Source of the DNA: Dysgonamonadaceae bacterium
GTDB taxonomy: Bacteria > Bacteroidota > Bacteroidia > Bacteroidales > Azobacteroidaceae
Assembly: GCA_031272085.1 (NCBI GenBank)
Contig: JAISUN010000129.1
Location: forward strand, 1-45,505
Length of the DNA stretch: 45,505 bases
Direction: 5' to 3'
The notes beneath the pieces are model-generated. The model was not told where the DNA came from. It searched no databases and was given only the letters and a program-made list of their open reading frames with translations. A program made the translations under genes and the position numbers. Position 1 is the stretch's first letter; the number at the start of each line of letters is the position of its first letter. Shown here piece after piece: positions 1 to 14,168 of this stretch.

Positions 1-696
1 CGCGCTATCGGTCATTCAGTTTTGACCTCAAATGCCAATACACGTGATAATGTTCTGCAAATTGAACAGGCAACAACATCATACAAACGCAATGATTTAC
101 AAAAAGTTATCCGCGAAAATTTGAAACCGGTCAATCATCCGTATTACACAAAATACAAACCTTTGCAAGCACTTTGTTTACAGATACTTCGACACGATAA
201 AACAACCTTTGGCGCGGATAAGAACAAAATTCACGGTTTGCTTTTCGATGGCGCTTGGCTGTGGGAAGAGTATCTGAATACGATTCTGAAAAACGATTTT
301 ATTCATCCTGAAAACAAAACAGGAAAATATAAGCACCATCTATTTGAAAATTTTCAGCCAATTTATCCTGACTTTTTAAGTAAAGAAACAAAAAATAGAA
401 TGGTTGGCGATGCAAAATATATTCCTTTGAGAAAACAACAAGAATATGCCGAAAACTCGGAGCGTGCTACAAGTATTTACTACAAAACAATTACTTATAT
501 GTATCGCTTCAATTCCAAAAATGCTTTTTTAATTTATCCTTCAAATAAAGCCGAAAACGAAGAATATAAAATCAAAGACACCAAAGGAGTATTGCTAAAA
601 ATAGGATTTGAAGTTCCTCAAACGACAACTTCTTTTTCTTGTTTTCAGACAGAAATACAAGAATCCGAAAAAGCAATAATCGGAGAATTGCAATAG
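1..696 (+). CDS. McrC-like restriction component, C-terminal part (5' truncated by window)
   Basis: The reading frame is open from the first base, so the true start lies outside the window and about 231 residues of the C-terminal part are seen. The visible region has the shape of the McrC family nuclease end: an LLFDGAWLWEEYL segment, then a PDFL stretch and a GDAKY stretch about 17 residues later, which together form a PD-(D/E)xK-like catalytic core. In McrBC systems McrC is the endonuclease partner of the GTP-driven motor McrB and acts on modified DNA. An upstream mcrB gene is expected but not visible. A DUF2357-type or LlaJI-type relative is the main alternative. Family assignment is from motif recognition; function is inferred. 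Confidence 0.72.
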   Translation, partial: RAIGHSVLTSNANTRDNVLQIEQATTSYKRNDLQKVIRENLKPVNHPYYTKYKPLQALCLQILRHDKTTFGADKNKIHGLLFDGAWLWEEYLNTILKNDFIHPENKTGKYKHHLFENFQPIYPDFLSKETKNRMVGDAKYIPLRKQQEYAENSERATSIYYKTITYMYRFNSKNAFLIYPSNKAENEEYKIKDTKGVLLKIGFEVPQTTTSFSCFQTEIQESEKAIIGELQ

Positions 697-741
697 TTTT
701 CATTTTTTATCCAACGACACCTTTTGTCGCTCTATCGTTGT

Positions 742-983
742 GCCTTTATAGAAAAAAATAATCCTTGTATATGCCTCCTCCTTTCCGACACCCACTTTCG
801 CCACCGCGGCTTAACGCATTTGCCCCAAGCCGACGTCATCATCTATTCGGGCATATTCACGATAATTACGGAATACAAAAATTGCGACATACCACTTTTG
901 TCAATGCCGCTATTTTGGACGAAAACGATGTGATAAAAAATGAGCCTGTTAGGGTAGTTGTCGGAATAAAGACAATCACGTAA
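742..983 (+). pseudogene. Metallophosphoesterase remnant with internal deletion and frameshift
   Basis: Two overlapping frames each carry one end of a calcineurin-like phosphoesterase. The first frame reads CLLLSDTHFRHRGL and then LPQADVIIYSG, the usual metal-binding DTH start and ADVIIHSG-like strand. The other frame picks up at the same bases with LFGHIHDNYGIQ and then TTFVNAAILDENDV, the usual C-terminal GHxH metal site. The middle of the protein (normally about 100 residues, with the remaining metal ligands) is missing and the two ends are out of frame, so no active enzyme can be made. The switch falls on ttcgggc near 857, bases that can encode part of both SG and LFG. Confidence 0.8.
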
Positions 984-1049
984 ATCAAAAAAAATATCCG
1001 AAAATCACAGTTCAGACATTAAACAACATACTTTGTCGTTATGGCGCCG

Positions 1050-1057
1050 TATCTTTG
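1050..1057 (+). promoter_or_regulatory. Bacteroidetes-type -7 box (TATCTTTG)
   Basis: TATCTTTG matches the TAnnTTTG element used by the Bacteroidetes primary sigma factor. A TTTG at 1032-1035 could serve as the -33 element, although the spacing (14 bases) is shorter than the usual 19-21. It would drive the small ORF that begins at 1120, leaving a leader of about 55 bases. Confidence 0.5.
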
Positions 1058-1119
1058 CATAAAATTTCCGCAATGGAGTTGGTTAATTGATGTGTTAAAC
1101 TATTAAAGGACAAAAGATT

Positions 1120-1269
1120 ATGCAATATTTATTTAAGGTAAAACCGACCAGAAACATCGGCGGGAAATGCGAAATCTTAAAGGACGAAAACGGCAAACAC
1201 AGCGGCGGACAGATAGAAAATATTGCCCGCAAATCCACGAAAAGAACACCGCCAGCGACAACAGAGTAA
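1120..1269 (+). CDS. Small hypothetical ORF, probably truncated (49 aa)
   Basis: ATG at 1120 is preceded by AAAGGA and a promoter-like box, and opens a 49-residue frame starting MQYLFKVKPTRNIGGK. The first about 30 residues look like the start of a small soluble protein; the tail (ARKSTKRTPPATTE) is basic, low in complexity and probably not native. The frame lies antisense over the last about 45 codons of the nucleotidyltransferase-like gene, so the two cannot both be intact originals. I recognise no family. Best reading: the front end of a small gene cut off where the RiPP cluster joins. Confidence 0.35.
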   Translation: MQYLFKVKPTRNIGGKCEILKDENGKHSGGQIENIARKSTKRTPPATTE

Positions 1270-2179
1270 TTACCGGATGTATTGGCAACAAAAGGATTGA
1301 AAAAAAATTATTTGCCGCGTAAATATCTGATATAAGGGAAATTCCGGGGAACAACTGGCGGAGAAAGGCTTTAATTCTTGCCTTGCTGCGGTCGATGAAA
1401 ATAAACTCCCACCACGCAGCAATTATGCGGTTGAAGAAAGTTGCAGAGTATTTTTTATTGGGATTCCGAAACAGACTGTCGAATATAAAATGCTTTCCCT
1501 CAACAAGTTCCGGAATTTTCACAGCATCAGTTCCGTATTTGTGTTTCATCATTCTGATTGCTGCGGTCAGAATCCTGCAAAGGTTGAATTGCCGGGCAAC
1601 TACCTGTATTTCAGCAATATAGGCATCGGAAAAACTGTTTTGCAGCATAAACAAATCACGCAGCCATTTATCGTCGGCAAAAAGATGAAAACAGTAATGT
1701 TGAGCCATATAAAGCCATTCGTCCACAGGGGATAAAAAACTGATTTTCTGCTCTTTATATGGAATTTGCCGTATTCGTGAAAGAGCGAAAGCGGTAAAAT
1801 CGCCGGTTGTAAGGCGGAAAAATTTCTTGTTTATCAGGCTGATATGAACGTCAAGGGCAAAAAAAGCCGGCGAATCGGTCAGCATATCAAACTTTCCTTT
1901 GGTTTTCAGACGATTAAACGCCGAAGGACTTTTTAATTTGTAACCAAGTTCATTTAAAATTTTCAGAAGTTGAGGCAGGCTGCGCTCGTCGGTCAGCAGG
2001 TCAATGTCCGAAACCGGACGGACGCAATCTTCGTCGTAAAGCGCGATGAGCAGCGAAACGCCCTTTAATGGGATGAGCAGGCAATCATTGCCGCACTTTT
2101 CCGCAATCGTCATAAAATTATTGATTAGCAACGAATTGCGGGCAAAAGCCAAATCCGAAGCCTCTATTCTTTCGTGCAT
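1133..2179 (-). CDS. Nucleotidyltransferase family protein (NTP_transf_5-like)
   Basis: Last gene of the peptide operon, 348 residues. The N-terminal part carries the pattern of the family: a KGVSLLIALY helix near residue 40, followed by RPVSDIDLLTDE around residues 55-65, where SDIDLL supplies the metal-binding Asp pair of the nucleotidyltransferase fold. Members of this family often sit in lasso peptide and related RiPP operons, where a tailoring role is suspected. The start overlaps the end of the ABC transporter gene by 16 bases, indicating translational coupling. The C-terminal about 25 residues (rich in Arg and Cys) are antisense to a small plus-strand ORF and may be read-through into foreign DNA, the original stop having been lost. 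Confidence 0.75.
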   Translation of the reverse strand: MHERIEASDLAFARNSLLINNFMTIAEKCGNDCLLIPLKGVSLLIALYDEDCVRPVSDIDLLTDERSLPQLLKILNELGYKLKSPSAFNRLKTKGKFDMLTDSPAFFALDVHISLINKKFFRLTTGDFTAFALSRIRQIPYKEQKISFLSPVDEWLYMAQHYCFHLFADDKWLRDLFMLQNSFSDAYIAEIQVVARQFNLCRILTAAIRMMKHKYGTDAVKIPELVEGKHFIFDSLFRNPNKKYSATFFNRIIAAWWEFIFIDRSKARIKAFLRQLFPGISLISDIYAANNFFSILLLPIHPVITLLSLAVFFSWICGQYFLSVRRCVCRFRPLRFRISRRCFWSVLP

Positions 2180-3849
2180 ACAATTTTACCCCGGATTATC
2201 TCGAAAAGAGAGTCGGATTCGTTAATCAACATTTTGTCGTGAGTTACGCAAACGACTAAACAATCGCGGGAAACCTTTCTTATACAGTCGATTATCGTCC
2301 GAGCATTTTCGGCGTCGAGATTGCCTGTTACTTCGTCGAAAAATATCACTTCGACATTTCGTATTAGTGCGCGGATAAGCGCAAGCCGCTGTTTTTCGCC
2401 TGTCGAGAGTTGGCGGCCGTTTTTGCCGATTTTTAATTCTTTCAGTTGCTGCTCATTTTCAGCGAGATACGAAAGGCCGAAATCGCGAAGCAGGCTCAAA
2501 ACGTGCTGTACGTCCGCTTCTCGGTCGAAAAACAGATTTTCAGCCAGAGTTCCGGCAAAAACAAAAGGTTCCTGCTCTACAAGTCCGATTTTTGCGGTCA
2601 GAGATTCTTCGGATATATCATTGATATTGCGCGAATTATAAAAAATATTGCCGCTTTGGGGCTGCCTTAAACCCATACAGAGATTAATCAGGGTTGTTTT
2701 TCCAGAACCGCTACGCCCGATGACGGTATTTATTCTACCCCGCTTGAACAGGGCGTTTGCACTGTCTAAAACCTTTTTCCCATCCTCGCCGTAAAAGAAT
2801 GAAACTTCGTTTATCGACAGCGTTTCAACCGGCTCCTCGAAGCGCGTTTTGCCGCTTTCCTCGGCGAGCGGATAATTGATTACATCCATTATTCTTCGCG
2901 CAGAACTCTCTGTTGTAGCGAGTTGCATATATCCGTTTATTATGTTCATTATTTCGCTGCGGATAAAAAGAATCGCCGCGGGAAACAGGACAAGTTCCGC
3001 AATATTAAGCCGTTGAGAAGTCAGAATTTCGCGACTTGCCATAAAAACGAAGAAGATTGTAACCGCAACTGTCATTGTTTCAACGATTAAGGTTTGCAGA
3101 GCGTTAAGTTTTGCCGTTTTTTTGCGCAGGTCGGCAAGTTCGGTTGAAACCCCGCCCAGTCGGCGTTCAACGTAGCCCGTAGCGCCGGAAACGGTAAAAA
3201 TCCGGAATCCGCGCAGCCAATCGACAAAATACTGGTGCAAATCGCCAATACGGTCGTAACTTATTTTGTTTAAGTGCTTTATCTTGCTCCTGAAAAGCGT
3301 AATTCCGGCTACAATAGTTGAAATCAGAATAAGTCCGGCAAGGGTAAGCGTGGGCGAAACAAGCATCAGCAGCAGAATAAAGGCTATTACCGTAACCGGA
3401 GCCTTGATAAATGAGCGGTAAACCATCGGCAGCAGGCTGGTAATCATACTCGATTCCATACTTAATGTCATAACTACGCGATTATCAATGCAATCCGAAA
3501 TATACGAGCCGGGCAGTTGCGAAAATTTGCGGATACAGGCAATTTCGATATTTCGCTTGATATTGGGCATTGTATAACCCATTATCAGCGCGGAAAATGT
3601 TTTCAGGAATATTCCAGCCAGCATCAGAGCGAAAAACAGCAGAATATCGCGAAAATTCAGTAAACGATTGATATTCAGCGAATAAATATCCATATAATTT
3701 TTCAGAACCCAGGCTACCGCCGCTGGAAAAATGCCCGCAAAAATATTGAGGACAGTAACCGACACAATTTTACTGTGTTCGCCCTTTGCCATTTTCCAGA
3801 CGAATTTAAGGGCGGCAATTTCGCGTTTAATCTCTTCCGAGTTTTTCAT
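2164..3849 (-). CDS. ABC transporter, fused membrane and ATPase domains
   Basis: A half-transporter of about 561 residues, likely exporter of the mature peptide across the inner membrane. Several hydrophobic membrane segments fill the first about 320 residues; the ATPase domain follows with Walker A GRSGSGKTT, signature LSTGEKQR and Walker B VIFFDEVTGNLD. There is no N-terminal C39 peptidase domain, so leader removal must be done by another protein, most simply the B2-like protein of the operon. The frame is open for 12 codons further upstream (ATG ending at 3885), but the start at MKNSEEIK is preferred because it overlaps the preceding radical SAM gene least (23 bases). Substrate is inferred from context. 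Confidence 0.85.
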   Translation of the reverse strand: MKNSEEIKREIAALKFVWKMAKGEHSKIVSVTVLNIFAGIFPAAVAWVLKNYMDIYSLNINRLLNFRDILLFFALMLAGIFLKTFSALIMGYTMPNIKRNIEIACIRKFSQLPGSYISDCIDNRVVMTLSMESSMITSLLPMVYRSFIKAPVTVIAFILLLMLVSPTLTLAGLILISTIVAGITLFRSKIKHLNKISYDRIGDLHQYFVDWLRGFRIFTVSGATGYVERRLGGVSTELADLRKKTAKLNALQTLIVETMTVAVTIFFVFMASREILTSQRLNIAELVLFPAAILFIRSEIMNIINGYMQLATTESSARRIMDVINYPLAEESGKTRFEEPVETLSINEVSFFYGEDGKKVLDSANALFKRGRINTVIGRSGSGKTTLINLCMGLRQPQSGNIFYNSRNINDISEESLTAKIGLVEQEPFVFAGTLAENLFFDREADVQHVLSLLRDFGLSYLAENEQQLKELKIGKNGRQLSTGEKQRLALIRALIRNVEVIFFDEVTGNLDAENARTIIDCIRKVSRDCLVVCVTHDKMLINESDSLFEIIRGKIVCTKE

Positions 3850-4807
3850 TTTTTGGGCGTTTGAATGTATATGTCCAGTTTGCAAACCGCGATAGCAGAC
3901 ATTCGCGGCAAAGCGGGATGGAATCTGTGCGTTTGAAAAAATGCAAACGGCGTATTTTCCGCGCTTTCGGCGAATTATAAATTTCGCTCAATTTTGCGTC
4001 GAGCAAACTGCCTACGGTCAATTCGCCGTAATAGTCGCAACTGCATAGACTTACATCGCCATTCCAGAAAACAACCAAACGGCTGTCAATATGCCTGCAA
4101 ATTTTGTGCCGCGGCGAAATATTGTTTTCAAGCCGACCGGTATAAAAAAATTTCGGCCATGGAAATTGTTTCCCGAAATTTATCCACCGCAAACGGGAAT
4201 ACCGCTTGAAAAGCCGCATTGCAACCTGCTCGCGCTCACATTCAAGATTGTCGAGCAGCGAAAGTTCGAAGCCGCGGCCACATTCGGCAAAAATACTGTC
4301 AATTTTGGCAAGTTCTTCCTCTGCTCTCGCAAATTTCGCTGGTTTGCGGATTTCTTCGTAACCATTCGGGTCGTGCATATCCATGGAAAATGAAATGCGT
4401 ATCCGCTTGTGAACAAGAATTTTACGCAATAAATTATGGTCAATTCCGTAGCCGTTGGTATAAATGACAGTGCTAACGCCTTTCAGTTGGCCGATTTGCT
4501 CGACCAACTTATCCAAATCGGGATTCAGAAAAGGCTCGCCATGCAGGTAAAGGCAAATTTCGCTTATCGGTAAGTCAATGTTTTTCAGGATTTTAGAAAA
4601 AATTTCCGGCTTCATTATTCCCCGCGGACGGCCTTCTTCGCCGCTTCCCTGCGGACAGCAAGTACAGCGAAGATTGCAAATATTGGTCGGCTCGATAATA
4701 ATATACCGGGGTGCGCTGCGTTGCCGTCCCTGACGTAAAAGTCCGTCTATCAACATTATACGCATTTCGCGAAAAAAATCCCGTATTTTATGCGCCAACT
4801 TTTTCAT
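3827..4807 (-). CDS. Radical SAM/SPASM protein
   Basis: 326 residues. The radical SAM cluster-binding motif CNLRCTCC lies near residues 44-51, followed by a HGEPFLNP strand in place of the usual GGEP. The C-terminal part looks like a SPASM domain: a Cys in the KICRHI segment, DVSLCSCDYYGE, then GSLLDAKLSEIYNS and a closing CREC pair, which would hold an extra iron-sulfur cluster. SPASM enzymes commonly modify ribosomal peptides (thioether, C-C crosslinks, epimerisation). This one is different in sequence from the three other radical SAM proteins of the operon. Its start overlaps the previous gene by 4 bases (ATGA-type coupling). The exact reaction cannot be told from sequence. Confidence 0.82.
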   Translation of the reverse strand: MKKLAHKIRDFFREMRIMLIDGLLRQGRQRSAPRYIIIEPTNICNLRCTCCPQGSGEEGRPRGIMKPEIFSKILKNIDLPISEICLYLHGEPFLNPDLDKLVEQIGQLKGVSTVIYTNGYGIDHNLLRKILVHKRIRISFSMDMHDPNGYEEIRKPAKFARAEEELAKIDSIFAECGRGFELSLLDNLECEREQVAMRLFKRYSRLRWINFGKQFPWPKFFYTGRLENNISPRHKICRHIDSRLVVFWNGDVSLCSCDYYGELTVGSLLDAKLSEIYNSPKARKIRRLHFFKRTDSIPLCRECLLSRFANWTYTFKRPKNEKLGRD

Positions 4808-6153
4808 CGCTCAATTTTATAAGAAAGGCAGGCTCCCTGACAGAGTTTTCTGTCGTAAAGAAAACAATCGGCGCAGCGTTCAAATAATGGCTTGGACAGC
4901 AATGATTTAACCTCGCCAAGGCAAAAGGATTCAACCTCGTTCCAAGATAAATTTTCATTGAATTGCAAACTGTGGGAAGTCAGTCCCAGACATGGATTAA
5001 GGCTCAAATCAGGCTTTACCGACAGATTATTTGTGCAATTATGCTCGTCGAGATTGCAGCGCGGAAAATTTCCCTTGGATAGCAGCGAGTTAGCCGTTTC
5101 CTCGTCAAAAATGCACAGCGGAAGCGGTTTAGCAAAAATAATGCCGATTTTTTGCGATTCGGCCTTAATAATCAGACTTTTAAGCATTGACGCATAATTT
5201 TGGAATGTATCAGGAGCGATAAAGCGGTTTTTCCCCTCGTCCGCCGGAATTGCAAGCGCGACGCTCAATTCTTTTAATCCCGTTTCGGTACAGAGTTTCA
5301 GCCACGAATCGACCTCAGGCGAAGCGTCCGAAACATTTGTACGCAAAATGAGATTGATTTTCTTCTTTTTTGCAAGGGCGATATTTTCGTGCATTATCCG
5401 CATCAATTCGGGCTTTTCGAGAGTTTGAGGCGTAAGATGCACAAAAATCATATCAATAAGTTTTCCGCTGAAATTGCGGAAATGCGAACAATCGCGAGTG
5501 AAATTCGAGGCAAAATAAGTGTTCATCCCGTATTGCCGGCACAAGCCGAGCATATCGTCGAAGCGGCTGTGCATAGTCGGTTCGCCGCCGCAAAAACTGA
5601 CGCGCTCAATCCGATTTTGTTTAGCCCATTTTAGAACTGATTCAAAATCAGACAGTTTCATTTCCATAGCCGGCATTTTGTATGAAAAACAGTATGGACA
5701 CGACAAATTGCAAAATCCGGTTGTAAAAATCATTATTTGGCGGATGGATTCGCAATCACCGCCGGTTGCTGACAAAATGTCAGGCGCAATGCGGAGCAAT
5801 TCCGGTCGGATTCCGTCGAAATACCGGTAAAGATTTTTCAGCAGCCGCTGTCGGTTAATTTCCGTACTACATTCGGCAAGTGCGCTGTCCAAGCGTGAAA
5901 ATAAGAGTTTACAGTCGGCGGCGGACTTCGCAAAATATTTGTATTTTTTTCCGCTGTCGAAGGGCGCAGGTTCGTCGAAACCCCTTGTCAGAAACGGGAA
6001 ACGCCGCCGCGCGTACTTCAAAAGAGGCTCAACATCCCCGTTTTCCTCAAAAAATGAGAAAAAAACTCCGCTCATACTCTCAAAATCGACCAGCGAAAAC
6101 TGAAAAATCAAAGAACTGCTCAAATTTGAAGATATTTTCCTTCTCTTAATCAT
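4804..6153 (-). CDS. Radical SAM protein with N-terminal extension
   Basis: 449 residues. About 140 residues of unassigned N-terminal sequence precede the radical SAM motif CNLSCPYC (near residues 148-155) and the CGGEPTMH strand. The C-terminal end, CADCFLYDRKLCQGACLSY, is a SPASM-like cysteine pattern (CxxC...CxxxC) for an auxiliary cluster. It shares with the two upstream radical SAM proteins the layout LxIPxxxGxNRF in the middle and the same Cys-rich tail, so all three look paralogous. The extension could bind the precursor or a partner, but it does not look like a PqqD domain. The start overlaps the kinase-like gene stop by 4 bases. Likely a maturase of the operon's peptides; reaction unknown. 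Confidence 0.82.
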   Translation of the reverse strand: MIKRRKISSNLSSSLIFQFSLVDFESMSGVFFSFFEENGDVEPLLKYARRRFPFLTRGFDEPAPFDSGKKYKYFAKSAADCKLLFSRLDSALAECSTEINRQRLLKNLYRYFDGIRPELLRIAPDILSATGGDCESIRQIMIFTTGFCNLSCPYCFSYKMPAMEMKLSDFESVLKWAKQNRIERVSFCGGEPTMHSRFDDMLGLCRQYGMNTYFASNFTRDCSHFRNFSGKLIDMIFVHLTPQTLEKPELMRIMHENIALAKKKKINLILRTNVSDASPEVDSWLKLCTETGLKELSVALAIPADEGKNRFIAPDTFQNYASMLKSLIIKAESQKIGIIFAKPLPLCIFDEETANSLLSKGNFPRCNLDEHNCTNNLSVKPDLSLNPCLGLTSHSLQFNENLSWNEVESFCLGEVKSLLSKPLFERCADCFLYDRKLCQGACLSYKIER

Positions 6154-7100
6154 AAATCAAGGGAATTTAGCAGTTCGGGGTCAAAATGTCCCTTATTGCC
6201 GAAAAGCAGCGTATAATGCGGCAAGTATGCGGTTTTTTCGCAAATATCCATCCATTCCTGCACCCTGTACAGTATTTTGCAGTTATTTCCTGCTTCGAGA
6301 AGCCAGATAAATGCTTCCTGCCGGCTCGCTTCGAGCAAATATGAGCGTTCAGAAACAGCGGTTTTTTGAATTTTTACTACCGCTGCAAGTTTATTTCTGT
6401 AAGAAAAATTAAAACCAAATTTATCGATAAAATCAATTTCTTTTTTCACTCTGCTTTTATTGTCATGCAATTTAGCATAACATAATAATGAATCTATAAT
6501 AATCTCTTTTTCAGCATTTTGAGAAATAAAAACAAGGTCGTCGCCCATAAATTCATAACCCGCCTTGCCGAGCATCATACATAACGTAGTTTTCCCTTCG
6601 CCGGAGCGGGCCGGCAAAAGCAAAGCCTTACCATCGCGGGACACGCAGGCGGCATGGATGCAAAATTTCCCGTACATCGCTAAAATGCTGTGCAACAAGA
6701 AGAAACTGTAATTGCTAAATATAGGACGATTTTTTCGAAAATAAAGTCCTTTTGTTTCGACAAGGTAACAATATGTAAGATTTTTAGCCGGTATATGGCG
6801 TATTAGAACTTCATTTCCTATCAAAATAAAATTTTCATCAGCGCCAACAGGATTGTACCAGGAAAGAGGAGTAATTATGTTGGTAAAACCATTCCAGACA
6901 AGCGGAAGTCCTTCCGGCAGAGGAAGTTTTTCTACCGCCTGAATCACAATTTCGTGAGCGTCTGCATAATCAAGTCCTTCGATATATTTACCCGAATGAT
7001 ACCGAAAAATTTGCAAAATGCTCTCTATATCCGCCTTATGATTAAGTCGAAAATCCAGTTTCACACCCGCAATTACCACGCTAACGCGCTGCTGTTCCAT
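6150..7100 (-). CDS. HPr kinase-like (HprK-related) protein
   Basis: 316 residues. A P-loop ARSGEGKTTL lies near residue 165 and a GDDLVF motif about 20 residues later; this pairing is typical of the HPr kinase/phosphorylase C-terminal domain and of the kinases found in some lasso peptide clusters. There the kinase phosphorylates the C-terminal side chain of the precursor (known for the paeninodin group). Here the two precursors end in Tyr runs and carry Ser in one core, so target residue is open. The gene starts 3 bases after the TGA of the downstream-most precursor and is more AT-rich than the radical SAM genes. Function by analogy; ATP-binding fold is well supported. Confidence 0.78.
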   Translation of the reverse strand: MEQQRVSVVIAGVKLDFRLNHKADIESILQIFRYHSGKYIEGLDYADAHEIVIQAVEKLPLPEGLPLVWNGFTNIITPLSWYNPVGADENFILIGNEVLIRHIPAKNLTYCYLVETKGLYFRKNRPIFSNYSFFLLHSILAMYGKFCIHAACVSRDGKALLLPARSGEGKTTLCMMLGKAGYEFMGDDLVFISQNAEKEIIIDSLLCYAKLHDNKSRVKKEIDFIDKFGFNFSYRNKLAAVVKIQKTAVSERSYLLEASRQEAFIWLLEAGNNCKILYRVQEWMDICEKTAYLPHYTLLFGNKGHFDPELLNSLDL

Positions 7101-7103
7101 TTA

Positions 7104-7268
7104 TCAATAATAATAGTACAGCGAAACGTAGTACAGACCGCCCGAATAGAGCGATGAACCGCTGTAATACAGTGCGCTGCCCTGCACCGTATTAACGGCC
7201 TCGTGCTTTTTTGTCATGGGCTTTTCGTATTTACGAACCGCAGCCCCGTTTGCCAAATTTGTTTCCAT
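7104..7268 (-). CDS. RiPP precursor peptide A, tyrosine-rich core
   Basis: 54 residues. The start at METNLANGAA is chosen because the second precursor begins with exactly the same residues; an ATG ten codons upstream lies in duplicated non-coding remnant. The leader (about residues 1-30) contains YEKP at 14-17, matching the YxxP signature bound by lasso-type RRE proteins, and ends in NTVQG. The putative core is SALYYSGSSL, then YSGGLYYVSL, and a closing YYYY: nine or ten Tyr spaced by small Ser/Gly residues. The gene sits between the PqqD-like gene and the kinase gene, as a precursor should. Cleavage after Gly30 is a guess based on where the two precursors stop being alike (SALYY is still shared). 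Confidence 0.85.
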   Translation of the reverse strand: METNLANGAAVRKYEKPMTKKHEAVNTVQGSALYYSGSSLYSGGLYYVSLYYYY

Positions 7269-7341
7269 AAATTTTACTTTTTTAAAATTATACAATTATT
7301 TAAAAATATCGCTTACGTTAGATTTAACTGCCTGAATATCA
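7269..7341 (-). pseudogene. Duplicated 3' fragment of the PqqD-like gene
   Basis: The spacer between the two precursors is a decayed copy of the end of the PqqD-like gene at 7510. Read on the minus strand it gives DIQAVKSNVSDIFK and then a stop, against DIQTVESDVSDIVKYW in the intact gene. Past that point about 12 bases have been lost, but the AAAGTAAAA stretch ahead of the precursor ATG is kept and may serve as ribosome binding region. The fragment has no start and cannot be a gene; it is the scar of a tandem duplication. Confidence 0.85.
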
Positions 7342-7500
7342 GTAATAATAGCAAGGATGATAATAGTATAAATTTTTCGGTTCTTCCTCAATTCTATAAT
7401 ACAGCGCGCTGCCCTGCACTATGTTTGGAGCCTCGTGTTTTTTTGTTGCGGGCTTTTCGTATCCACGATTAGCAGCCCCGTTTGCCAAATTTGTTTCCAT
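7339..7500 (-). CDS. RiPP precursor peptide B, tyrosine-rich core
   Basis: 53 residues, too short to be picked up by most gene callers. Begins METNLANGAANRGYEKP, then TKKHEA and VQGSALYY, so the leader is nearly identical to precursor A including the YEKP (YxxP) motif. After the shared SALYY the core is different: RIEEEPKN, then LYYYHPCYYY. It is charged and has one Cys and one His, unlike A, but again ends in a Tyr triplet. Its TGA stop lies in the TGATA bases that form the duplication junction. An in-frame ATG two codons upstream is also possible. Substrate for the same PqqD-like protein and radical SAM enzymes by leader identity. Confidence 0.85.
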   Translation of the reverse strand: METNLANGAANRGYEKPATKKHEAPNIVQGSALYYRIEEEPKNLYYYHPCYYY

Positions 7501-7509
7501 ATTCATTTT

Positions 7510-7773
7510 TTACTTTGAAATAAGTTTTTCCGACAGCCAGTATTTTACAATATCGCTGACGTCAGATTCAACAGTCTGAATATCAGGAAATTGCTCTTTA
7601 AGAGAAGCGGCGATTTCCGCCTGCGATTTGCCTTGTTCGACCCACTGCCAAATAAGGCTTGCAGTATAATTGAAAGTGTAGTAGGCTCCGCTGTCGAGAT
7701 TAACGGCTACTACTGCGTCTTTCAGCAATTTCCAACTGATGTTGGAGTTGATGGCATAGATTTCCTTTTCCAT
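7510..7773 (-). CDS. PqqD-like peptide-binding protein (RRE, lasso B1-like)
   Basis: 87 residues from the ATG at 7773 (MEKEIYAINSNISWK); that start leaves 2 bases after the preceding radical SAM stop, while the longer frame would overlap it. The sequence has the PqqD/RRE shape: a beta strand with VAVNLDSGAYYTFNYTASLIWQWVE, then a helix, then KEQFPDIQ and a C-terminal helix. Such domains bind leader peptides and present them to modifying enzymes; in lasso systems the equivalent B1 protein grips the YxxP leader motif, which both precursors here have. The 3' end of this gene was copied in the tandem duplication just downstream. Confidence 0.87.
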   Translation of the reverse strand: MEKEIYAINSNISWKLLKDAVVAVNLDSGAYYTFNYTASLIWQWVEQGKSQAEIAASLKEQFPDIQTVESDVSDIVKYWLSEKLISK

Positions 7774-7775
7774 TT

Positions 7776-8726
7776 TTATATGTTTTTTGCGTTTAGTAAA
7801 ATCTTTGCAAGACAGCCTCCATTGCAAAATTTGGGCTGCATCAGGGTACAGCGGAAGCAATTTTCTGTCCTTCCGAGGCGGCGATAGGGATTAAGTTTGT
7901 TTTCAAACCACCGCTTTGCTTCGGGATAGGTTGTAAATTCCGAAAAATGCCGTTTTTCTTTGGTCGCAAGCGGCAAACAGTAAATACAGTCGCCTTCGGG
8001 CGAAATATCAAGGCGCGAACAGCAGCCCGAATTAAGCGGGGAGCCTGTATCCCAGAGGATTCCCAACTGTTCTTCGGTAAAGGCGCAAGTCGGGATTCCA
8101 CATTCATATTCGAGGCGAATATCGTGCTTTTCGGCTTCCTGTGCGAGTTTCACAACTTTCTCGGCCACTACGGAATAATCCTCGTCTTCGAGAAAATAGT
8201 TCGAGCCGGTAAGCGTGGGCAGCACAAAGCCGATTTTGATGCTCCGATTCAGATTATATTCCTCAATCAGGCGGATAGCCCAGTCGCTGTCGTCATCGTC
8301 GGGAATGATATTAAACGTGATTGTCGCGTGATGTTTCAATGCGCGGAGCGAAGCCTCGATATTGCGGCGTTGCTCATCATTCCAACTGCTTGGCGGATTG
8401 ATATTTACAACCCATGAAACGGGCAAATCGGCTAACTTTTCGGAATATACGGGAGCCTGTGCCGTTGCAAGATTTGAAAAGACTGTTATGCTAAAATCGC
8501 GGGCAAGCAAATATTCTGCAATATGCTCGAAATCGGGATGTAAAGTAGGTTCGCCGCCCATCAGATGAATCGATTTGTTTTCCGGCGTCCGCGAAATCCA
8601 CTCCACAATGCTCTCGAATGTTTCGGCGCTCATATTTTTTCCGGCTAATCGCGGAGCCATAAAATCCATTCCGAAACAGTAGGAACAGCGGTAGTTACAG
8701 CGATTTGTCAACATTAAATTTGCCAT
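7776..8726 (-). CDS. Radical SAM protein, RiPP maturase candidate
   Basis: 316 residues starting MANLMLTNRCNYRCSYC; the radical SAM motif sits only ten residues from the N-terminus, so there is no upstream domain. GGEPTLHP follows near residue 60. Cysteines in the middle (GCCSRLDI, DCIYCLPL) and the tail CFRCTLMQPKFCNGGC form a SPASM/twitch-like set for auxiliary clusters. The ATG is chosen over a TTG two codons upstream because the paralogue also begins MANL and because it avoids overlap. It directly precedes the PqqD-like gene, the classic pair of maturase and leader-binding protein. Reaction unknown; crosslinking at Tyr is a reasonable guess from the cores. Confidence 0.84.
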   Translation of the reverse strand: MANLMLTNRCNYRCSYCFGMDFMAPRLAGKNMSAETFESIVEWISRTPENKSIHLMGGEPTLHPDFEHIAEYLLARDFSITVFSNLATAQAPVYSEKLADLPVSWVVNINPPSSWNDEQRRNIEASLRALKHHATITFNIIPDDDDSDWAIRLIEEYNLNRSIKIGFVLPTLTGSNYFLEDEDYSVVAEKVVKLAQEAEKHDIRLEYECGIPTCAFTEEQLGILWDTGSPLNSGCCSRLDISPEGDCIYCLPLATKEKRHFSEFTTYPEAKRWFENKLNPYRRLGRTENCFRCTLMQPKFCNGGCLAKILLNAKNI

Positions 8727-8728
8727 AA

Positions 8729-9676
8729 TCAAACAACATTATAACTTTTACAACCTCCGCGGCAGGCCCGCCTGCGGTAATGCTTGCAATCGGCGCATTG
8801 GGGAAAAATCCCCGCCCGATGGCCAAAATAATCGCCGATATGCTTATCGAAACTGCGGTAAAGTTCGCGCAAATTGTCGGTTCCAAGAGCATTTTCGCGA
8901 TGCAGGCGGAACAATGGGAAACAGTTCCACGCTTCAAGTCCGGGGCCAATATCGACCACAGGACAGCAATCGAAAGCCATATTTACCCCGCTGCGCTGCA
9001 AAACGCCGATTTCGCGGGTAGTGAACATACAGGCGGTAAATCCGCAATCCATACCGAGAGAAACACTGCGCTCGGCGGCAGTTTCCGCCATTCTTACAAA
9101 ATATTTTCCCATTTCTGCAAAGCGGTCGGAACTGATAAAGCGGTTGCCGCCCCGGTAAATCGGCAAGGCTAATCCCACTCTGATAAACCGCATCAGCAGA
9201 TGGTATTCGTCTATCGTATCGAAAAGAAAAGAGAAATCGGCCTCCGTATCGAAAATTGTGTATGAAAGCGAAGTTATCCGGTTGAAACGGCTCATAAAAT
9301 CTGTGAGATTGCGGTATTTCTCGTCGGTATAAGTATCTCTTGTTCCAATATTTACAACAAAATAGACGGGATTTTTGCCAAATTCAATACTGTTCAGCGC
9401 TTCGGGAGCGGGATTTGTCGCGCTGGTAAAAACTTTGGCAGTAATATTGCGGCTCCACAACAATTCTAAAACTTCGCCAAGATGCGGATACAGAAAGGGT
9501 TCGCCGCCCAATATGCCGAGTTCGTGAAACTGGCCGGGATAATGGTCTAACAGTGCGCGGATTTCATCGATGGTCAAAATATCATCCACGTTTCCCCCGC
9601 CCTCTTTCAGAACCTTTCGAGCAAAGCAAAAGGGACATCCTCGGTCGCATCGGTGCGTTAGATAAAGATTAGCCAT
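8729..9676 (-). CDS. Radical SAM protein, RiPP maturase candidate (paralogue)
   Basis: About 315 residues if started at MANLYLTHRCDRGCPFC; an in-frame ATG nine codons upstream would overlap the preceding gene by 16 bases and is the alternative. The CxxxCxxC motif and GGEPFLYP are intact, with DCCPVVDI, an AWNCFPL segment, and the tail CADCKHYRRRACRGGC as auxiliary cluster ligands. It matches the next gene in layout: same N-terminus, the LPxxxGxNxF middle motif, and the Cys-rich tail, so they are products of an old duplication. The gene lies 2 bases from its paralogue. Presumed to act on the same precursors, perhaps at other positions. Confidence 0.84.
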   Translation of the reverse strand: MANLYLTHRCDRGCPFCFARKVLKEGGGNVDDILTIDEIRALLDHYPGQFHELGILGGEPFLYPHLGEVLELLWSRNITAKVFTSATNPAPEALNSIEFGKNPVYFVVNIGTRDTYTDEKYRNLTDFMSRFNRITSLSYTIFDTEADFSFLFDTIDEYHLLMRFIRVGLALPIYRGGNRFISSDRFAEMGKYFVRMAETAAERSVSLGMDCGFTACMFTTREIGVLQRSGVNMAFDCCPVVDIGPGLEAWNCFPLFRLHRENALGTDNLRELYRSFDKHIGDYFGHRAGIFPQCADCKHYRRRACRGGCKSYNVV

Positions 9677-9687
9677 ATCATTAATTT

Positions 9688-9948
9688 TCAAGCATTTATC
9701 CAATATACAAAGCGGGAATTTTCTCCTATTTTTTCGAGTTCAAACGGTAAAACATTCCTGTTTGGACGGATGAAAGTTTTTCCGTTGCGGGTAAGCCAGG
9801 CGTGTCCGCAAGTCCGACCGCCGAGATACATCATAATATTGATTCGATAGAAAGATTTTCTGTCGAAAAAACTGCAAATACCGTACAGCAACAATGAACG
9901 GTAATAACAGCGATGTTCCGAAAACTTTTTTAATTTAAAAAGCGTCAC
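9688..9948 (-). CDS. Lasso B2-like transglutaminase-fold protein (putative leader peptidase)
   Basis: First gene of the operon, 86 residues from a GTG start. It shows HRCYYRSLLLYGIC (catalytic Cys of the family's CLxRSL motif) at about residues 12-25 and CGHAWLTRNGKTF around residues 48-60, where the HAW His is the second catalytic residue. In lasso peptide systems the B2 protein of this fold cuts the leader off. It is shorter at the N-terminus than usual B2 proteins (about 140 residues), with only 13 residues before the Cys. A stop at 9961-9963 in frame and the promoter just beyond leave no room for a longer start. Either a minimal version or one that has lost its first helices. Confidence 0.68.
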   Translation of the reverse strand: MTLFKLKKFSEHRCYYRSLLLYGICSFFDRKSFYRINIMMYLGGRTCGHAWLTRNGKTFIRPNRNVLPFELEKIGENSRFVYWINA

Positions 9949-9968
9949 CTCATTGCAATTTTACTTTG

Positions 9969-9976
9969 CAAAGATA
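9969..9976 (-). promoter_or_regulatory. Promoter -7 box (TATCTTTG) of the RiPP operon
   Basis: On the minus strand TATCTTTGCA is a perfect TAnnTTTG element about 20 bases ahead of the GTG of the B2-like gene. Transcription from here would give a very short leader. No other promoter-like box stands out between the tightly packed genes from 9948 to 1133, so this is likely the main promoter of the whole operon. No clear TTTG -33 element was found. Confidence 0.65.
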
Positions 9977-10039
9977 AGAATACTTTTTTAAATAAAATAG
10001 CCCCCAAAAGAGTGGTTTTTTTGTGAAAATCAAGTGTTT

Positions 10040-11548
10040 TTACTGCATATTTTCAATCATATTCAGCATCCGCATCGTCGCTTTTATGGCGGCAATGGTC
10101 TGGTCAACGTCCAAACCGCGGGTTTTGAAGTCTTTTCCGTTGAAATTCCACGCAATAGTGGTTTGAACAAGGGCGTCGGTGCGGCCTCCGGCCGGGATTG
10201 TAACGTTGTAATCGGTCAGCGCTGGCTTGGGTTTGCCGAGTTTGTTGTATATTTTCCATACCGCTTTCGAGAAAGCGTGAAACTGGCCGTCGCCGGGCAT
10301 TGTTTCTTCGTATTCTTCTTCGCCAATTTTTATCCTGACTGTGGCAGTCGGACGCAATCCGCGGGCAAGCGAAAGCGAGAAATTGACCATTTTTATTGTG
10401 TCGGCCGACTGGGTGTGCATAACGTCGGAAACGATGTACGGGAGGTCGTCCTGGGTAACGATTTCTTTTTTGTCGCCAAGTTCGATAATCCGCTCGGTAA
10501 CTTTCTTCATCGCCTCGTTGTCGAGCGTGATTCCGAGCGCTTCGAGGTTCTTCTTGATGTTCGATTTTCCGGAAGTTTTTCCGAGGGCGTATTCTCGTTC
10601 GCGACCAAAACGTTCGGGCAGCAAGTCGTTGTAATACAGTTTGTTTTTGTTGTCGCCGTCGGCGTGAATGCCGGCGCACTGGGTAAAAACATTGTCGCCG
10701 ATAACCGGCTTGTTGTTCGGGATTCTGATTCCGGAATAGGATTCCACGACGCGGCTTGCGCGGTTCAGTTTTTTCTCGACTATGTTGGTTTTTATTTTCA
10801 ACTGGTCGTGAAGCATCGCTATAACGCTGGTCAGAGGCGCATTTCCGGCGCGTTCGCCAAGTCCGTTTATCGTAGTGTGAAGACATTTCACTCCGGCTAA
10901 AGCCGCTGAATATGAGTTGCCTACCGCCAAATCGTAATCGTTGTGCGCGTGAAAATCGAAATGCAAATCGGGATAACGCTGAATCATCTCGCGGCAAAAG
11001 CGGAGCGTATTTTCAGGATTCAGGATGCCGAGCGTATCGGGCAGCATAAAGCGGCGAATACTCTCATCTTTCAGATTATCAACCATATAGAAGACATATT
11101 CGGGCGAGTGCCGGATACCATTCGACCAGTCTTCGAGGTAAATATTGACGTCGATTCCGCGTTTTTTTGCTTCGGCAAGGACGAATTTTATGTCGGCCAA
11201 ATGCTCTTCGGGCGTTTTCCGCAACTGTTCCGAACAGTGTTTCAGCGAGCCTTTGCAAAGCAGGTTCAGGACGCGGCATCCGGCGCGTGTGAGCCAGTCG
11301 AGCGACACCGTGCCGTCAACAAAACCCAGAATTTCTATCCGGTCGAGCATATTTTTCGAGGCAGCCCATTCGGCCACCTTGCAGACTGTCTCAAACTCGC
11401 CTTCGGAAACCTTTGCGGACGCGAGTTCAACGCGGTCAACACGCAGTTCTTCGAGCAGCAGGCGGGTTATGTGCATCTTCTCGGCATACGAAAAAGACAC
11501 GCCCGAAGTCTGCTCGCCGTCGCGTAAAGTTGTATCGAGGATTTCCAT
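10040..11548 (-). CDS. 2-isopropylmalate/citramalate synthase family protein (LeuA/CimA-type)
   Basis: About 502 residues. The N-terminus ILDTTLRDGEQTSGVSFS is the HMGL-like TIM-barrel signature (metal-binding Asp and catalytic Arg), FDFHAHNDYDLAVGN carries the metal-binding His pair, and GLGERAGNAPL follows. The C-terminal about 130 residues form the allosteric LeuA dimer domain. The enzyme condenses acetyl-CoA with a 2-oxo acid: 2-oxoisovalerate for leucine, or pyruvate for the citramalate route to isoleucine. Without leuB/C/D beside it the substrate is not settled, and the citramalate type is plausible for this stand-alone form. Start at ATG 11548 (MEILDTT) is supported by a promoter box just upstream. 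Confidence 0.85.
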   Translation of the reverse strand: MEILDTTLRDGEQTSGVSFSYAEKMHITRLLLEELRVDRVELASAKVSEGEFETVCKVAEWAASKNMLDRIEILGFVDGTVSLDWLTRAGCRVLNLLCKGSLKHCSEQLRKTPEEHLADIKFVLAEAKKRGIDVNIYLEDWSNGIRHSPEYVFYMVDNLKDESIRRFMLPDTLGILNPENTLRFCREMIQRYPDLHFDFHAHNDYDLAVGNSYSAALAGVKCLHTTINGLGERAGNAPLTSVIAMLHDQLKIKTNIVEKKLNRASRVVESYSGIRIPNNKPVIGDNVFTQCAGIHADGDNKNKLYYNDLLPERFGREREYALGKTSGKSNIKKNLEALGITLDNEAMKKVTERIIELGDKKEIVTQDDLPYIVSDVMHTQSADTIKMVNFSLSLARGLRPTATVRIKIGEEEYEETMPGDGQFHAFSKAVWKIYNKLGKPKPALTDYNVTIPAGGRTDALVQTTIAWNFNGKDFKTRGLDVDQTIAAIKATMRMLNMIENMQ

Positions 11549-11569
11549 ATTTTTCTCTAATTTGCACCG

Positions 11570-11577
11570 CAAAAGTA
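11570..11577 (-). promoter_or_regulatory. Promoter -7 box (TACTTTTG) of the LeuA/CimA-type gene
   Basis: TACTTTTG on the minus strand fits TAnnTTTG and lies about 21 bases before the ATG at 11548. It falls inside the longer reading frame (to 11572), which argues for the shorter start. Confidence 0.55.
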
Positions 11578-11651
11578 GTAATTTTTCTCAACAATCGGCT
11601 CAACAAATCAAGAATTTCCCGCTTTTGCTTTCGATTATTAAGAAATTATAT

Positions 11652-11659
11652 TAATTTTG
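11652..11659 (+). promoter_or_regulatory. Promoter -7 box (TAATTTTG) of the restriction-modification gene
   Basis: TAATTTTG fits TAnnTTTG and lies 19 bases ahead of the ATG at 11679. A TTTG at 11624-11627 could be the -33 element, with spacing (24) somewhat above the usual range. Confidence 0.5.
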
Positions 11660-11678
11660 CATCTGAAAATATTTTCCA

Positions 11679-14153
11679 ATGAAATACGGCAACATCCGCG
11701 AAGAAGAACTGAAAAACCGCGTCGAGAAAGACTTTTTCGACCGCTTCGATTGCGCCGCTATTGTTGGAAATATCGACTTTGCCGTATGCTCGAAAAACCG
11801 GCCTGATTCCGACGCCGAATACCTGCTCTGGGCCGAAGCAAAAGCCGCCTGCACAGACATTCTCGCAATGCTCGCACAACTTGTTTTGACTATCGGAAAA
11901 GCCCGTACTTTCGACAAATTTCTTCCACCGGCATTTCTCGGCTGCTTCGACTGCGAAAAAATCGCTTTCATTCCCTATCACGAAATCCAGGATATTTTTT
12001 ATCAGAACGATTTTAACTGGAAAGTAAATTCCTCTGACATAACTACAAAAGAGTTTCAGCAAATTTACGGTCAGGTAAAAAAAATCATCGAAAACGATAT
12101 TCCTTTTGAAACATATCTTTTTGATTTTGAGAAAGATGAAGCGGAATTGCGGAAATTTATCAGGGAAAATTTCAGGTATTCCATTTCTGACAGAACCGGA
12201 ATATCTAAACTGCAAATCGACAAAAACAATTTCATTACCATTTACCAAAAATGGGCAAAAACCGTTAAACCAACCATCAACATTGAATGGGACAGGGTTA
12301 AGCCGAATGGCATTGTTGACGGCGCATTCTATCTTGCCGACCTGATTTCGGACAAAAACACCACGCTGCTCGAAAAACTGAATGTAGTGCTGAAATCCAC
12401 GCATTACGTCGCCAACCGGCGGATTGATACTTTCGGAATGTTCGCCTCGAACACCATTGATTTTACCGACAAACAGCAGGCGCACACGCAGTTTTGGGCA
12501 AAATACGAGCGTCCGCCGAAAGAAGATTATTGGGATTATATTATCGAACGCCACGATTTGCTTGTGCCGCAGGATGTTCGCGAGCGGAAAGGCAGTTTTT
12601 TTACGCCGACAGAATGGGTAGAACTTTCGCAACAGTACCTTGCCGACGTTTTCGGCGAAGACTGGCAAGATGAATATTACATTTGGGATTGCGCCGCCGG
12701 AACGGGAAATCTGCTCGCCAACCTGACCAACAAATACAATATCTGGGCTTCCACGCTCGACAAACAGGATGTCGATGTTATGCACGAGCGGATAAAACTG
12801 ATGAACGAAAAGTCGATGAACGGACAGGGCGCAAACCTGCTTGACGACCATGTTTTCCAGTTCGATTTCCTGAATGACGGTTTTGACAAGTTGCCCGAAG
12901 GCTTGCAAAGAATCATCAAAGACGAAAAACTGCGCAGGCGGCTGATAATTTATATCAATCCGCCGTATGCGGAAGCCACTAATTATAAAGGAAATACAAA
13001 GGCTGACGTGGCGCGTATAAGCAAGATTTCCGAAAAATATAAAAAGGAATTGGACGGCGCAATGAACGAACTTTACGCTCAATTTTTCATTCGCGTTTTT
13101 AAAGAAATACCATCTGCAACACTGGCTGCATTCAGCAAAATAAAATATATCAGCGCACCGAATTTCAAGAAGTTCAGGCAAGTTTTTACAGGCAAATTTC
13201 TGAAAGGCTTCGTTTGCCCTTCTTCAACATTCGATAACGTAACAGGCAATTTTCCTGTCGGTTTTTCAATTATTAAATTTGATGAAAAATCGGCGCTTAA
13301 ATCTGTTTCGTTTGACGTTTTCGGTGCAAATAACGAATATATCGGTCAAAAACAATTTCATTCGGATGACGATAAAAAGTATATAAATCAATGGATTTCA
13401 ACCTATAAGAAAGATGGTGAGGGGCTGTGTTTCCTGAATTGTGCAAACAATTCCTTTCAAAATCAAAAATATGTTTGGATAAGCGTTAAAGAGCAGAATA
13501 CGCATTGTGCGCATTTGCCGTTAGTCGTTGATTCAATAATTCCTGCGAGCATTTATTTTGCCGTCCGTCATTGCATTTCTGCAACTTGGCTCAACGACCG
13601 CGACCAGTTCCTTTTCCCCAATAAAAAATGGGAAAAAGACATTGATTTTCAGAACGATTGCCTTGCATTTATGCTGTTTCACGGACAAAACCGCATTTCC
13701 TGCAAAGACGGCGTAAATCATTTCATCCCCTTTGAAGAATCCGAGGTAAACGCGCGTACAAAGTACGAAAGCCATATTATAATCAGTTTCCTGAAAGGCA
13801 AAAAAATCCACAATGCCTATACGGATTTGTTCGACCAGCAGGAAAAAACGATGTCGAAACGCGAATTTTCGCCCGAAGCCCAAGCCGTTTTCGATGCGGG
13901 GCGGGAACTTTGGAGGTATTATCACGATAGATATTCCATTTTTTTGAAAAATGGAATATCTGAATACAACGTAAACGCCTCATTATACGACATTCGCGAC
14001 TATTTTCAGGGCAGAAACGAAGCCGGCAAGATGAACAACAGTTCGACCGATGAAAAATACAACGAACTGATTGGCGCCTTGCGCGAAAAACTGAACCTTT
14101 TGGCGAAAAAAATCGAGCCGAAAGTCTATGAATACGAATTTTTAATGCAATAA
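11679..14153 (+). CDS. Single-chain restriction-modification enzyme (type IIG-like)
   Basis: 824 residues. The N-terminus looks like a PD-(D/E)xK nuclease: IDFAV near 32-36 and EYLLWAEAKA at 47-56. The middle holds an adenine methyltransferase: GSFFTPTEWVELS near 305-318, motif I DCAAGTGNLL at about 337-346, and motif IV NPPY at 427-430. The C-terminal about 350 residues, with no family motif that I can name, would hold the target recognition part. Such fused enzymes both methylate and cut DNA without partner subunits, and none is seen here. The gene lies between a metabolic synthase gene and iorB, ending 15 bases before iorB, which suggests insertion into a metabolic operon. Confidence 0.8.
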   Translation: MKYGNIREEELKNRVEKDFFDRFDCAAIVGNIDFAVCSKNRPDSDAEYLLWAEAKAACTDILAMLAQLVLTIGKARTFDKFLPPAFLGCFDCEKIAFIPYHEIQDIFYQNDFNWKVNSSDITTKEFQQIYGQVKKIIENDIPFETYLFDFEKDEAELRKFIRENFRYSISDRTGISKLQIDKNNFITIYQKWAKTVKPTINIEWDRVKPNGIVDGAFYLADLISDKNTTLLEKLNVVLKSTHYVANRRIDTFGMFASNTIDFTDKQQAHTQFWAKYERPPKEDYWDYIIERHDLLVPQDVRERKGSFFTPTEWVELSQQYLADVFGEDWQDEYYIWDCAAGTGNLLANLTNKYNIWASTLDKQDVDVMHERIKLMNEKSMNGQGANLLDDHVFQFDFLNDGFDKLPEGLQRIIKDEKLRRRLIIYINPPYAEATNYKGNTKADVARISKISEKYKKELDGAMNELYAQFFIRVFKEIPSATLAAFSKIKYISAPNFKKFRQVFTGKFLKGFVCPSSTFDNVTGNFPVGFSIIKFDEKSALKSVSFDVFGANNEYIGQKQFHSDDDKKYINQWISTYKKDGEGLCFLNCANNSFQNQKYVWISVKEQNTHCAHLPLVVDSIIPASIYFAVRHCISATWLNDRDQFLFPNKKWEKDIDFQNDCLAFMLFHGQNRISCKDGVNHFIPFEESEVNARTKYESHIIISFLKGKKIHNAYTDLFDQQEKTMSKREFSPEAQAVFDAGRELWRYYHDRYSIFLKNGISEYNVNASLYDIRDYFQGRNEAGKMNNSSTDEKYNELIGALREKLNLLAKKIEPKVYEYEFLMQ
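13929..13961 (+). repeat. Perfect 15-bp inverted repeat inside the restriction-modification gene
   Basis: AGATATTCCATTTTT and its exact reverse complement are separated by only TTG. As RNA this would be a strong hairpin near the 3' end of the coding region. It encodes RYSIFLKNGIS. A related but imperfect pair lies near 12177-12208 and encodes RYSISDRTGIS. Confidence 0.85.
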
Positions 14154-14168
14154 AAACACAATATATTA

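Follow-up and report, generated by a model that had tools for sequence, protein, structure and literature searches.

The 45,505-nucleotide contig JAISUN010000129.1 (assembly GCA_031272085.1, a Dysgonamonadaceae bacterium; "the window" below is this whole stretch) carries a single compact row of minus-strand genes at positions 1133-9948. Accessory proteins of the lasso peptide type are encoded here together with four radical S-adenosylmethionine (SAM) enzymes and two small peptides with tyrosine-rich cores. The gene set is real and conserved, apparently a pathway of gut Bacteroidales for a ribosomally synthesised and post-translationally modified peptide (RiPP), unnamed in the libraries and open-licence literature that we searched. 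Its parts are known: a RiPP with a RiPP recognition element (RRE), radical SAM enzymes, a B2-type peptidase and a kinase. It is their combination, with a substrate built of tyrosine pentads, that has no name in those sources. Open reading frames (ORFs) and domain matches give the following operon, all features being on the minus strand.

9969-9976, minus: Bacteroidetes-type -7 promoter-like element TATCTTTG (consensus match; weak alone)
9688-9948, minus: short Cys/His peptidase, B2-like, 86 residues, GTG start (Cys and His conserved in the family)
8729-9676, minus: rSAM1, radical SAM enzyme with eight auxiliary cysteines (domain search, alignment; ORF as scanned, 8729-9703)
7776-8726, minus: rSAM2, paralogue of rSAM1 with the identical eight auxiliary cysteines (domain search, alignment)
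7510-7773, minus: PqqD-like RRE of the lasso B1 type (lasso PqqD models)
7339-7500, minus: precursor A1, leader ending in YEKPATKKHEAPNIVQGS, core ALYYRIEEEPKNLYYYHPCYYY (ORF, family alignment)
7269-7338, minus: decayed repeat of the 3' end of pqqD, lying between the two precursors (duplication scar; local alignment)
7104-7268, minus: precursor A2, tandem copy, core ALYYSGSSLYSGGLYYVSLYYYY (ORF, alignment)
6150-7100, minus: HprK-like kinase with conserved Walker A and GDD (NCBIfam, alignment)
4804-6153, minus: rSAM3, radical SAM-SPASM fold like SuiB and anSME (model residues 133-449; fold comparison)
3827-4807, minus: rSAM4, radical SAM/SPASM protein, best solved-sequence relative BtrN (Pfam, PDB sequences)
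2164-3852, minus: ATP-binding cassette (ABC) exporter, permease-ATPase (Pfam/NCBIfam)
1133-2179, minus: nucleotidyltransferase-like protein of the NTP_transf_5 family, DxD and one more Asp invariant (Pfam, alignment)

Successive genes are separated by 11, 2, 2, 9, 70, 3, -4, -4, -26 and -16 bases. Every gene named in the original prediction was found at its place and on its strand. The single promoter proposed there fared less well. The -7-type match TATCTTTG exists and fits the Bacteroidetes consensus. Matches to that consensus are common in the window, however (69 versus 43.6 expected), and no -33 box lies at the usual spacing, the closest upstream TTTG being 28 bases off by eye, so the promoter is plausible but unproven.

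A species genome collection (84,980 species) was scanned with an alignment of rSAM2 and gave at least 80 loci, all counts being lower bounds. At least 23 of these are Bacteroidales loci that match at 54-73% identity; among the matches listed, the next best full-length one, from Anaerolineales (L047), falls to 32%. rSAM1, rSAM2, PqqD, precursor, kinase, rSAM4 and NTP_transf_5 occur in 23/23 of these further loci and the B2 gene in 22/23, the contig of the last (L026) beginning at rSAM1. The ABC exporter was detected in 19/23 and rSAM3 in 18/23. All nine enzyme and transport types plus the precursor are present in 14/23. The genes that are present keep the order of the window in 17/23, and in six rSAM2 has moved nearer to NTP_transf_5. 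Five loci (L035, L041, L043, L046, L048) encode two successive HprK-like kinases. Because it recurs in 23 other loci, the gene set is more than a chance assembly.

Smaller draws gave a sparser picture. At the family level an rSAM1 search found the set in 2/45 genomes, the window's own and one of the same genus (G036, locus L025). An order draw of 393 genomes gave seven matches: the set itself in the window's own genome and in G182 (L031), and a different system in the other five. Among 395 genomes drawn from the phylum, rSAM2 at E 1e-40 retrieved the window's own genome and four distant ones. On the gene tree the window sits in a supported group of six (98/97) that mixes Dysgonomonadaceae, Odoribacteraceae, Prevotellaceae and Tannerellaceae, families being taken from record labels. 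Since families are mixed, this gene tree, read without a species tree, suggests horizontal spread among gut Bacteroidales. Searches with rSAM2 returned a single distant Chloroflexota match among plasmids (28% identity) and none among phages. Several carriers derive from rumen, deer, sheep and buffalo gut samples according to their record labels; others are presumably from termite guts.

A polytopic DUF6056 membrane protein lies between rSAM2 and NTP_transf_5 in three loci (L037:6674-8188, L039:10963-12468, L042:9891-11420), assigned by Pfam match in the first two and by eye in the third; it is possibly a glycosyltransferase-like partner.

Precursor peptides

Precursor ORFs were first picked up with loose criteria, one in every locus, and their coordinates were later set by means of the VQGS motif, which again gave one such ORF per locus. 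With A1 and A2 of the window and one from each of the 23 loci, the set comprises 25 precursors with 24 distinct cores. Local alignment indicates that a segment with the pqqD 3' end and A1 was duplicated; the frame of A2 is intact and the copy of the pqqD end that precedes it has decayed.

The leader is lasso-like (YxxPxT...VQGS), with Y, P, T, H and VQGS invariant in 25/25. The core is 41% Tyr, 17% Leu, 15% Thr and 8% Ser and has a period of five residues, in units of LYYTS or LYYTT; LYYTT repeats are cleanest in the precursors of L042 and L044. Identity at lag 5 amounts to 189, against 98 +/- 8 in 2000 shuffles (maximum 122), and at lags 2, 3 and 7 it lies below expectation. Between adjacent repeat units another codon is used at 55/125 same-residue positions, near-copies counted. 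The residue is thus kept between units while its codon changes, which indicates that the tyrosine repeat is held at the protein level. The tyrosine-rich cores of the original prediction were thereby borne out. That prediction would have failed had the small ORFs been untranslated; the periodic core and its synonymous codon drift speak against this, and by this sequence-level measure the precursors are very probably translated and selected.

Relatives differ strongly in repeat number and core length, with 14-31 residues following VQGS by eye count. Asp is absent from every core and Glu occurs in those of 3/25 precursors (A1, L029, L034). A sactipeptide or ranthipeptide assignment was rejected, as Cys donors are found in the cores of just 2/25 (A1, L041). 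Leader cleavage is predicted between Gly and Ser of VQGS, to within one residue either way, where it would leave an invariant N-terminal Ser, because the spacing from YxxP then agrees with that of Bsf-type lasso leaders, which have YxxPxL at -17 to -12 in the available text of the Bsf study (PMC10368454).

A PqqD-type protein acting with radical SAM enzymes is also found in the pyrroloquinoline quinone (PQQ) and mycofactocin pathways. A PqqD-type RRE, radical SAM enzymes, a Tyr-rich substrate and a peptidase are what a pathway for a tyrosine-derived redox cofactor of that kind would show. Such a pathway is nevertheless a very unlikely source of these cores, which hold many repeated tyrosines instead of one and vary strongly in length and repeat number; an exporter accompanies them in 19/23 loci, and the operon holds no recognisable partner dehydrogenase.

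Helper proteins and the search for a lasso cyclase

The PqqD-like protein matches the PqqD family (Pfam/NCBIfam, E 6e-13), and NCBIfam lasso PqqD models match 24/24 family members, the window's own with 34.6 bits against a cut-off of 70. No Pfam model matched the B2-like protein of the window alone. Twelve of 23 B2 family members, the window's not among them, matched PF13471 (Transglut_core3) within a limit of E <= 1 (best 6.5e-6), and Cys14 and a Gly-His-x-Trp motif are invariant in 23/23. Compared with six lasso B2 proteins, the family profile gave a weak match (probability 6.5, E 0.0056) in which the Cys and a His-Ala-Trp align. The kinase weakly matches HprK_rel_A of NCBIfam (3e-11; 42.8 of 200 bits) and the Pfam HPr kinase family below its cut-off (0.003); its Walker A and GDD motifs are invariant and its best PDB relative is HprK (1jb1, E 4e-6). 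The nucleotidyltransferase-like protein matches PF14907 (NTP_transf_5, E 9e-24), with its DxD and one more Asp invariant, and the exporter matches ABC_tran (E 2e-26).

The paeninodin, pseudomycoidin and Bsf lasso clusters resemble this operon in their separate B1 and B2 proteins, HprK-like kinase, nucleotidyltransferase, ABC exporter and YxxP leader, as far as the available text of the reports goes (PMC9266682, PMC10368454, PMC7533575). In the portions at hand, PadeK and PsmK phosphorylate lasso peptides, and PsmN is associated with their hexosylation, which might also be due to a glycosyltransferase of the host that acts once the peptide has been nucleotidylated (PMC9266682). BsfK phosphorylates lasso precursors, and BsfB1 helps both phosphorylation and B2 cleavage, again according to the available text (PMC10368454). 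The present operon differs in its four radical SAM enzymes, in a Tyr-pentad core almost without Asp and Glu, and in that no cyclase was detected in the loci. Its leader has Thr for the Leu of YxxPxL and a VQGS junction without Thr at -2.

This shared accessory set raises the question of an ordinary lasso pathway whose cyclase is encoded elsewhere and whose radical SAM genes serve tailoring. Lasso-type clusters with the same helpers do exist in Bacteroidales. In an NTP_transf_5-based search of 295 genomes of the order, 34 matched at E 1e-8 or better, with close relatives only in G000 and G182. Fourteen neighbourhoods were examined from the other 32 matching genomes, and three of them (L141, L144, L151) hold Asn-synthetase-, PqqD- and kinase-like genes besides NTP_transf_5, while the others hold only part of this set or nothing of it. 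Small ORFs carrying a W..P motif occur in L141, L144, L149 and L151 and resemble precursors in the three clusters. The comparison with lasso clusters drawn in the original prediction was therefore fair. The source genome, 82% complete, also carries two Asn-synthetase-like genes on other contigs (C73, C80).

On the other side, tblastn at E 1e-3 found no Asn-synthetase-like gene in 23/23 loci or in window 1-20000. Controls were positive at three independent loci (E 2e-7 to 5e-11) and at the query's own. The C73 gene lies, by eye, among polysaccharide-type genes and has no recognisable B1- or B2-like neighbour; the surroundings of C80 were not covered. Of the features that mark a lasso pathway, a B1 RRE and a B2 peptidase were found (24/24 and 23/23 family members, as above). 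The Asp or Glu at core position 7-9 was not found; as the cores lack Asp, and Glu occurs in only 3/25, there is no usual macrolactam acceptor. In all 25 leaders Thr replaces the Leu of YxxPxL, and none has Thr at the VQGS junction. An ordinary lasso pathway thus appears highly improbable, the least probable of the alternatives considered here. The original claim of lasso-type helpers with radical SAM enzymes and no adjoining cyclase describes a conserved set, and the pathway is very probably not a lasso pathway in the usual sense. A "replacement" of the cyclase, as that claim had it, is only one conceivable history, given that radical SAM proteins also accompany HprK- and PqqD-type proteins in the SynChlorMet cassette and lasso-type RREs in the RRE-Finder report (both below).

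A second grouping of similar proteins is the SynChlorMet cassette, for which NCBIfam brings together HprK-type (ScmC), PqqD-type (ScmD) and radical SAM-type (ScmE/ScmF) proteins. Membership was rejected, as all scores lie far under the cut-offs (ScmC 28.9/125, ScmD 14.5/100, ScmE 35.5/400, ScmF 24-30/400); no paper using the name was found in the open-licence literature. Among the NCBIfam matches listed, none that exceeds its cut-off belongs to a model naming this class, and precursor A1 had 0 matches, in keeping with the original statement that the product fits no named family. Within the available text of the open-licence literature we found no description of the gene set or core. The accessible part of a Bacteroidales RiPP survey (PMC10352776) does not contain the word nucleotidyltransferase, and that of a rumen bacteriocin survey (PMC13289728) gives no account of either gene set or core. 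In the available text on RRE-Finder, about 300 lasso-type RREs adjoin radical SAM enzymes (PMC7470986).

Radical SAM enzymes and a tyrosine-rich sister system

All four enzymes match Radical_SAM (Pfam/NCBIfam, E 3e-14 to 9e-11), and a Pfam SPASM match is confined to rSAM4 (3827-4807). rSAM1 and rSAM2 are of similar size, both start MANL.LT.RC, share eight auxiliary ligand cysteines and form one family with a sister clade described below. About 135 residues precede the radical SAM part of rSAM3. NCBIfam matches covered all 25 for rSAM1 (8729-9703) and the best 25 of 82, 59 and 56 for the other three. Among these, rSAM1-4 lie far from the cut-offs of the cyclophane maturase types GrrM, XyeB, DynA and FxsB (DynA 28.5/450 bits for rSAM2).

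In sequence and predicted fold rSAM3 is nearest to SuiB, the streptide maturase of the radical SAM-SPASM type. Identity is 17-18%, however, a separate B1 protein would recognise the leader here, and the core lacks conserved Lys and Trp. The radical SAM enzymes might instead epimerise, oxidise, decarboxylate or cleave at tyrosine without crosslinking it, as spliceases do in excising tyramine. The solved sequence closest to rSAM4 is BtrN, a dehydrogenase; that of rSAM2 is TigE (8vpo), which is not known to be an aromatic crosslinker; and the epimerase EpeE is among the fold matches of rSAM3, at a lower Z of 15.1. The best matches of rSAM3, SuiB (a C-C crosslinking enzyme) and anSME, do not settle the question, and a five-residue period would be unlike alternating epimerisation. 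We rate purely non-crosslinking chemistry as unlikely, if the most serious competitor to aromatic crosslinking.

No rSAM3 was detected in L034, L038, L039, L042 and L048. The core ends in Lys or Arg in 4/5 of these loci versus 0/19 other clusters, the window included (Fisher p 0.0005, uncorrected). On the tree, rSAM3 must change state four times, and supported branches make three of these changes unavoidable. Only 2/3 independent pairs follow the link between rSAM3 and the core C-terminus (sign test p 0.5), so it is a lead only.

A quick tree with eight sister-clade sequences separated rSAM1, rSAM2 and the sister clade with Shimodaira-Hasegawa-like approximate likelihood ratio support of 100, 99 and 96. 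The sister clade occurs in nine examined loci. In six, a nearby protein combines a twin-arginine-like N-terminus (by eye) with a tail that is extremely Tyr-rich or Tyr/Ser-rich.

L020:2617-7586, L023:6415-11943, L024:5916-10786: rSAM1-like protein, protein of about 290 residues, second radical SAM protein
L154:5788-10057, L155:812-5144, L156:8160-12105: rSAM1-like protein, protein of about 155 residues, second radical SAM protein

The first three have stretches such as YYNYYDYYSYYYNYY, and the last three are milder. Over 1.88 Mb, comprising the window and 157 loci with overlaps included, ORFs of 60-2000 residues with at least 18 Tyr per 60 residues were found solely in 5/9 sister-clade loci: L020, L023, L024, L155 and L156 (the last also as L108, the same place), with L154 below the bar. 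No Tyr-rich protein was seen in L021, L022 or L157; in L022 and L157, unlike L021, the contig stops nearby. Of the second radical SAM proteins, that of L023 alone was scanned: the dynobactin DynA model gives it 169 bits and GrrM 106, each short of its cut-off. A GT9-like protein is encoded in L023 and, by eye, likewise in L020 and L024.

The sister system thus resembles the operon in having a radical SAM enzyme of the same family, with the same auxiliary cysteines, near Tyr-rich proteins. It is unlike the operon in its twin-arginine export (by eye), and its examined neighbourhoods hold no match to B1, B2, kinase or nucleotidyltransferase. It points independently to Tyr-rich substrates. These structural-looking neighbours also lend some substance to the view that the product belongs to the cell surface or matrix, as a crosslinked, polymer-like Tyr-rich peptide instead of a diffusible antibiotic or signal. 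The precursors are short (14-31 residues after VQGS), however, bear leaders and follow a peptidase-ABC route, and a surface role is in our judgement improbable, about as much so as non-crosslinking chemistry or a shade more.

Proposed pathway and neighbouring features

A conserved leader, a variable core, an RRE, modifying enzymes, a peptidase and an exporter (19/23) lie in one operon, the general marks of a RiPP pathway. We consider it likely that lasso-type B1, B2, kinase and nucleotidyltransferase proteins here assist radical SAM enzymes in modifying tyrosine repeats, and that the product is exported. We infer the catalytic steps, their order, the cleavage site, the type of crosslink and the role of the product as follows. 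The PqqD-like B1 protein would bind the YxxPxT leader and present the precursor to rSAM1 and rSAM2, usually rSAM3 and always rSAM4, which would act on the Leu-Tyr-Tyr-Thr/Ser repeats. The modification would most likely fall on tyrosines and most likely consist of aromatic crosslinks that recur once in every pentad. The HprK-like kinase may then phosphorylate a hydroxyl, and NTP_transf_5 may elaborate the phosphate-bearing hydroxyl, as homologues of the paeninodin and pseudomycoidin type appear to do. Leader removal near VQG|S would be the task of B2, and export of the product that of the ABC protein.

Several observations weigh against this pathway. As no NCBIfam cut-off was reached by rSAM1-4 among the matches listed, family membership does not settle their chemistry, putative crosslinking included; anSME, a non-crosslinker, matches the fold of rSAM3 nearly as well as SuiB does. 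The profile match of B2 to lasso B2 proteins is weak, and its structure model gave no weighty B2-like or protease match. No ABC exporter was detected in 4/23 loci and no rSAM3 in 5/23. All 23 relatives come from records labelled as metagenome-assembled genomes or uncultured, with no cultured host among them. Finally, Chloroflexota relatives of rSAM2 (L047:1004-3173, L158:8712-12542) adjoin PqqD-like proteins (by eye) and twin-arginine proteins without Tyr enrichment, the one in L047 ending in a Cys-rich tail; tyrosine specificity is therefore not a trait of the wider radical SAM family.

If the pathway holds, the leader-handling proteins of lasso biosynthesis, with kinase and nucleotidyltransferase, would form a module able to function in the absence of a lasso cyclase and to support radical SAM chemistry. 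The 24 distinct natural cores may allow the number of rings to be read from the number of repeats, and a second Tyr-rich protein system is tied to the same enzyme family. Few RiPPs from such bacteria are known to have been characterised. More tentatively, and leaning somewhat against it as a whole, we envisage tyrosine repeats as the specialty of one radical SAM family in Bacteroidota and relatives. This family would work in two export settings, B1/B2-handled LYYTS peptides and twin-arginine proteins, and with one crosslink per pentad might yield a ladder-like RiPP, phosphorylated or decorated by nucleotidyl or hexosyl groups, whose ring number is coded by its repeats.

Elsewhere in the window, a McrBC-like fragment lies at 22-696. 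An 824-residue protein at 11679-14153 (plus strand) has no Pfam match and contains an NPPY motif, a motif also present in adenine methyltransferases. A match to the FopS small RNA family (RF04319) was found at 18034-18114 (minus strand); its 59.5 bits exceed the cut-off of 56.

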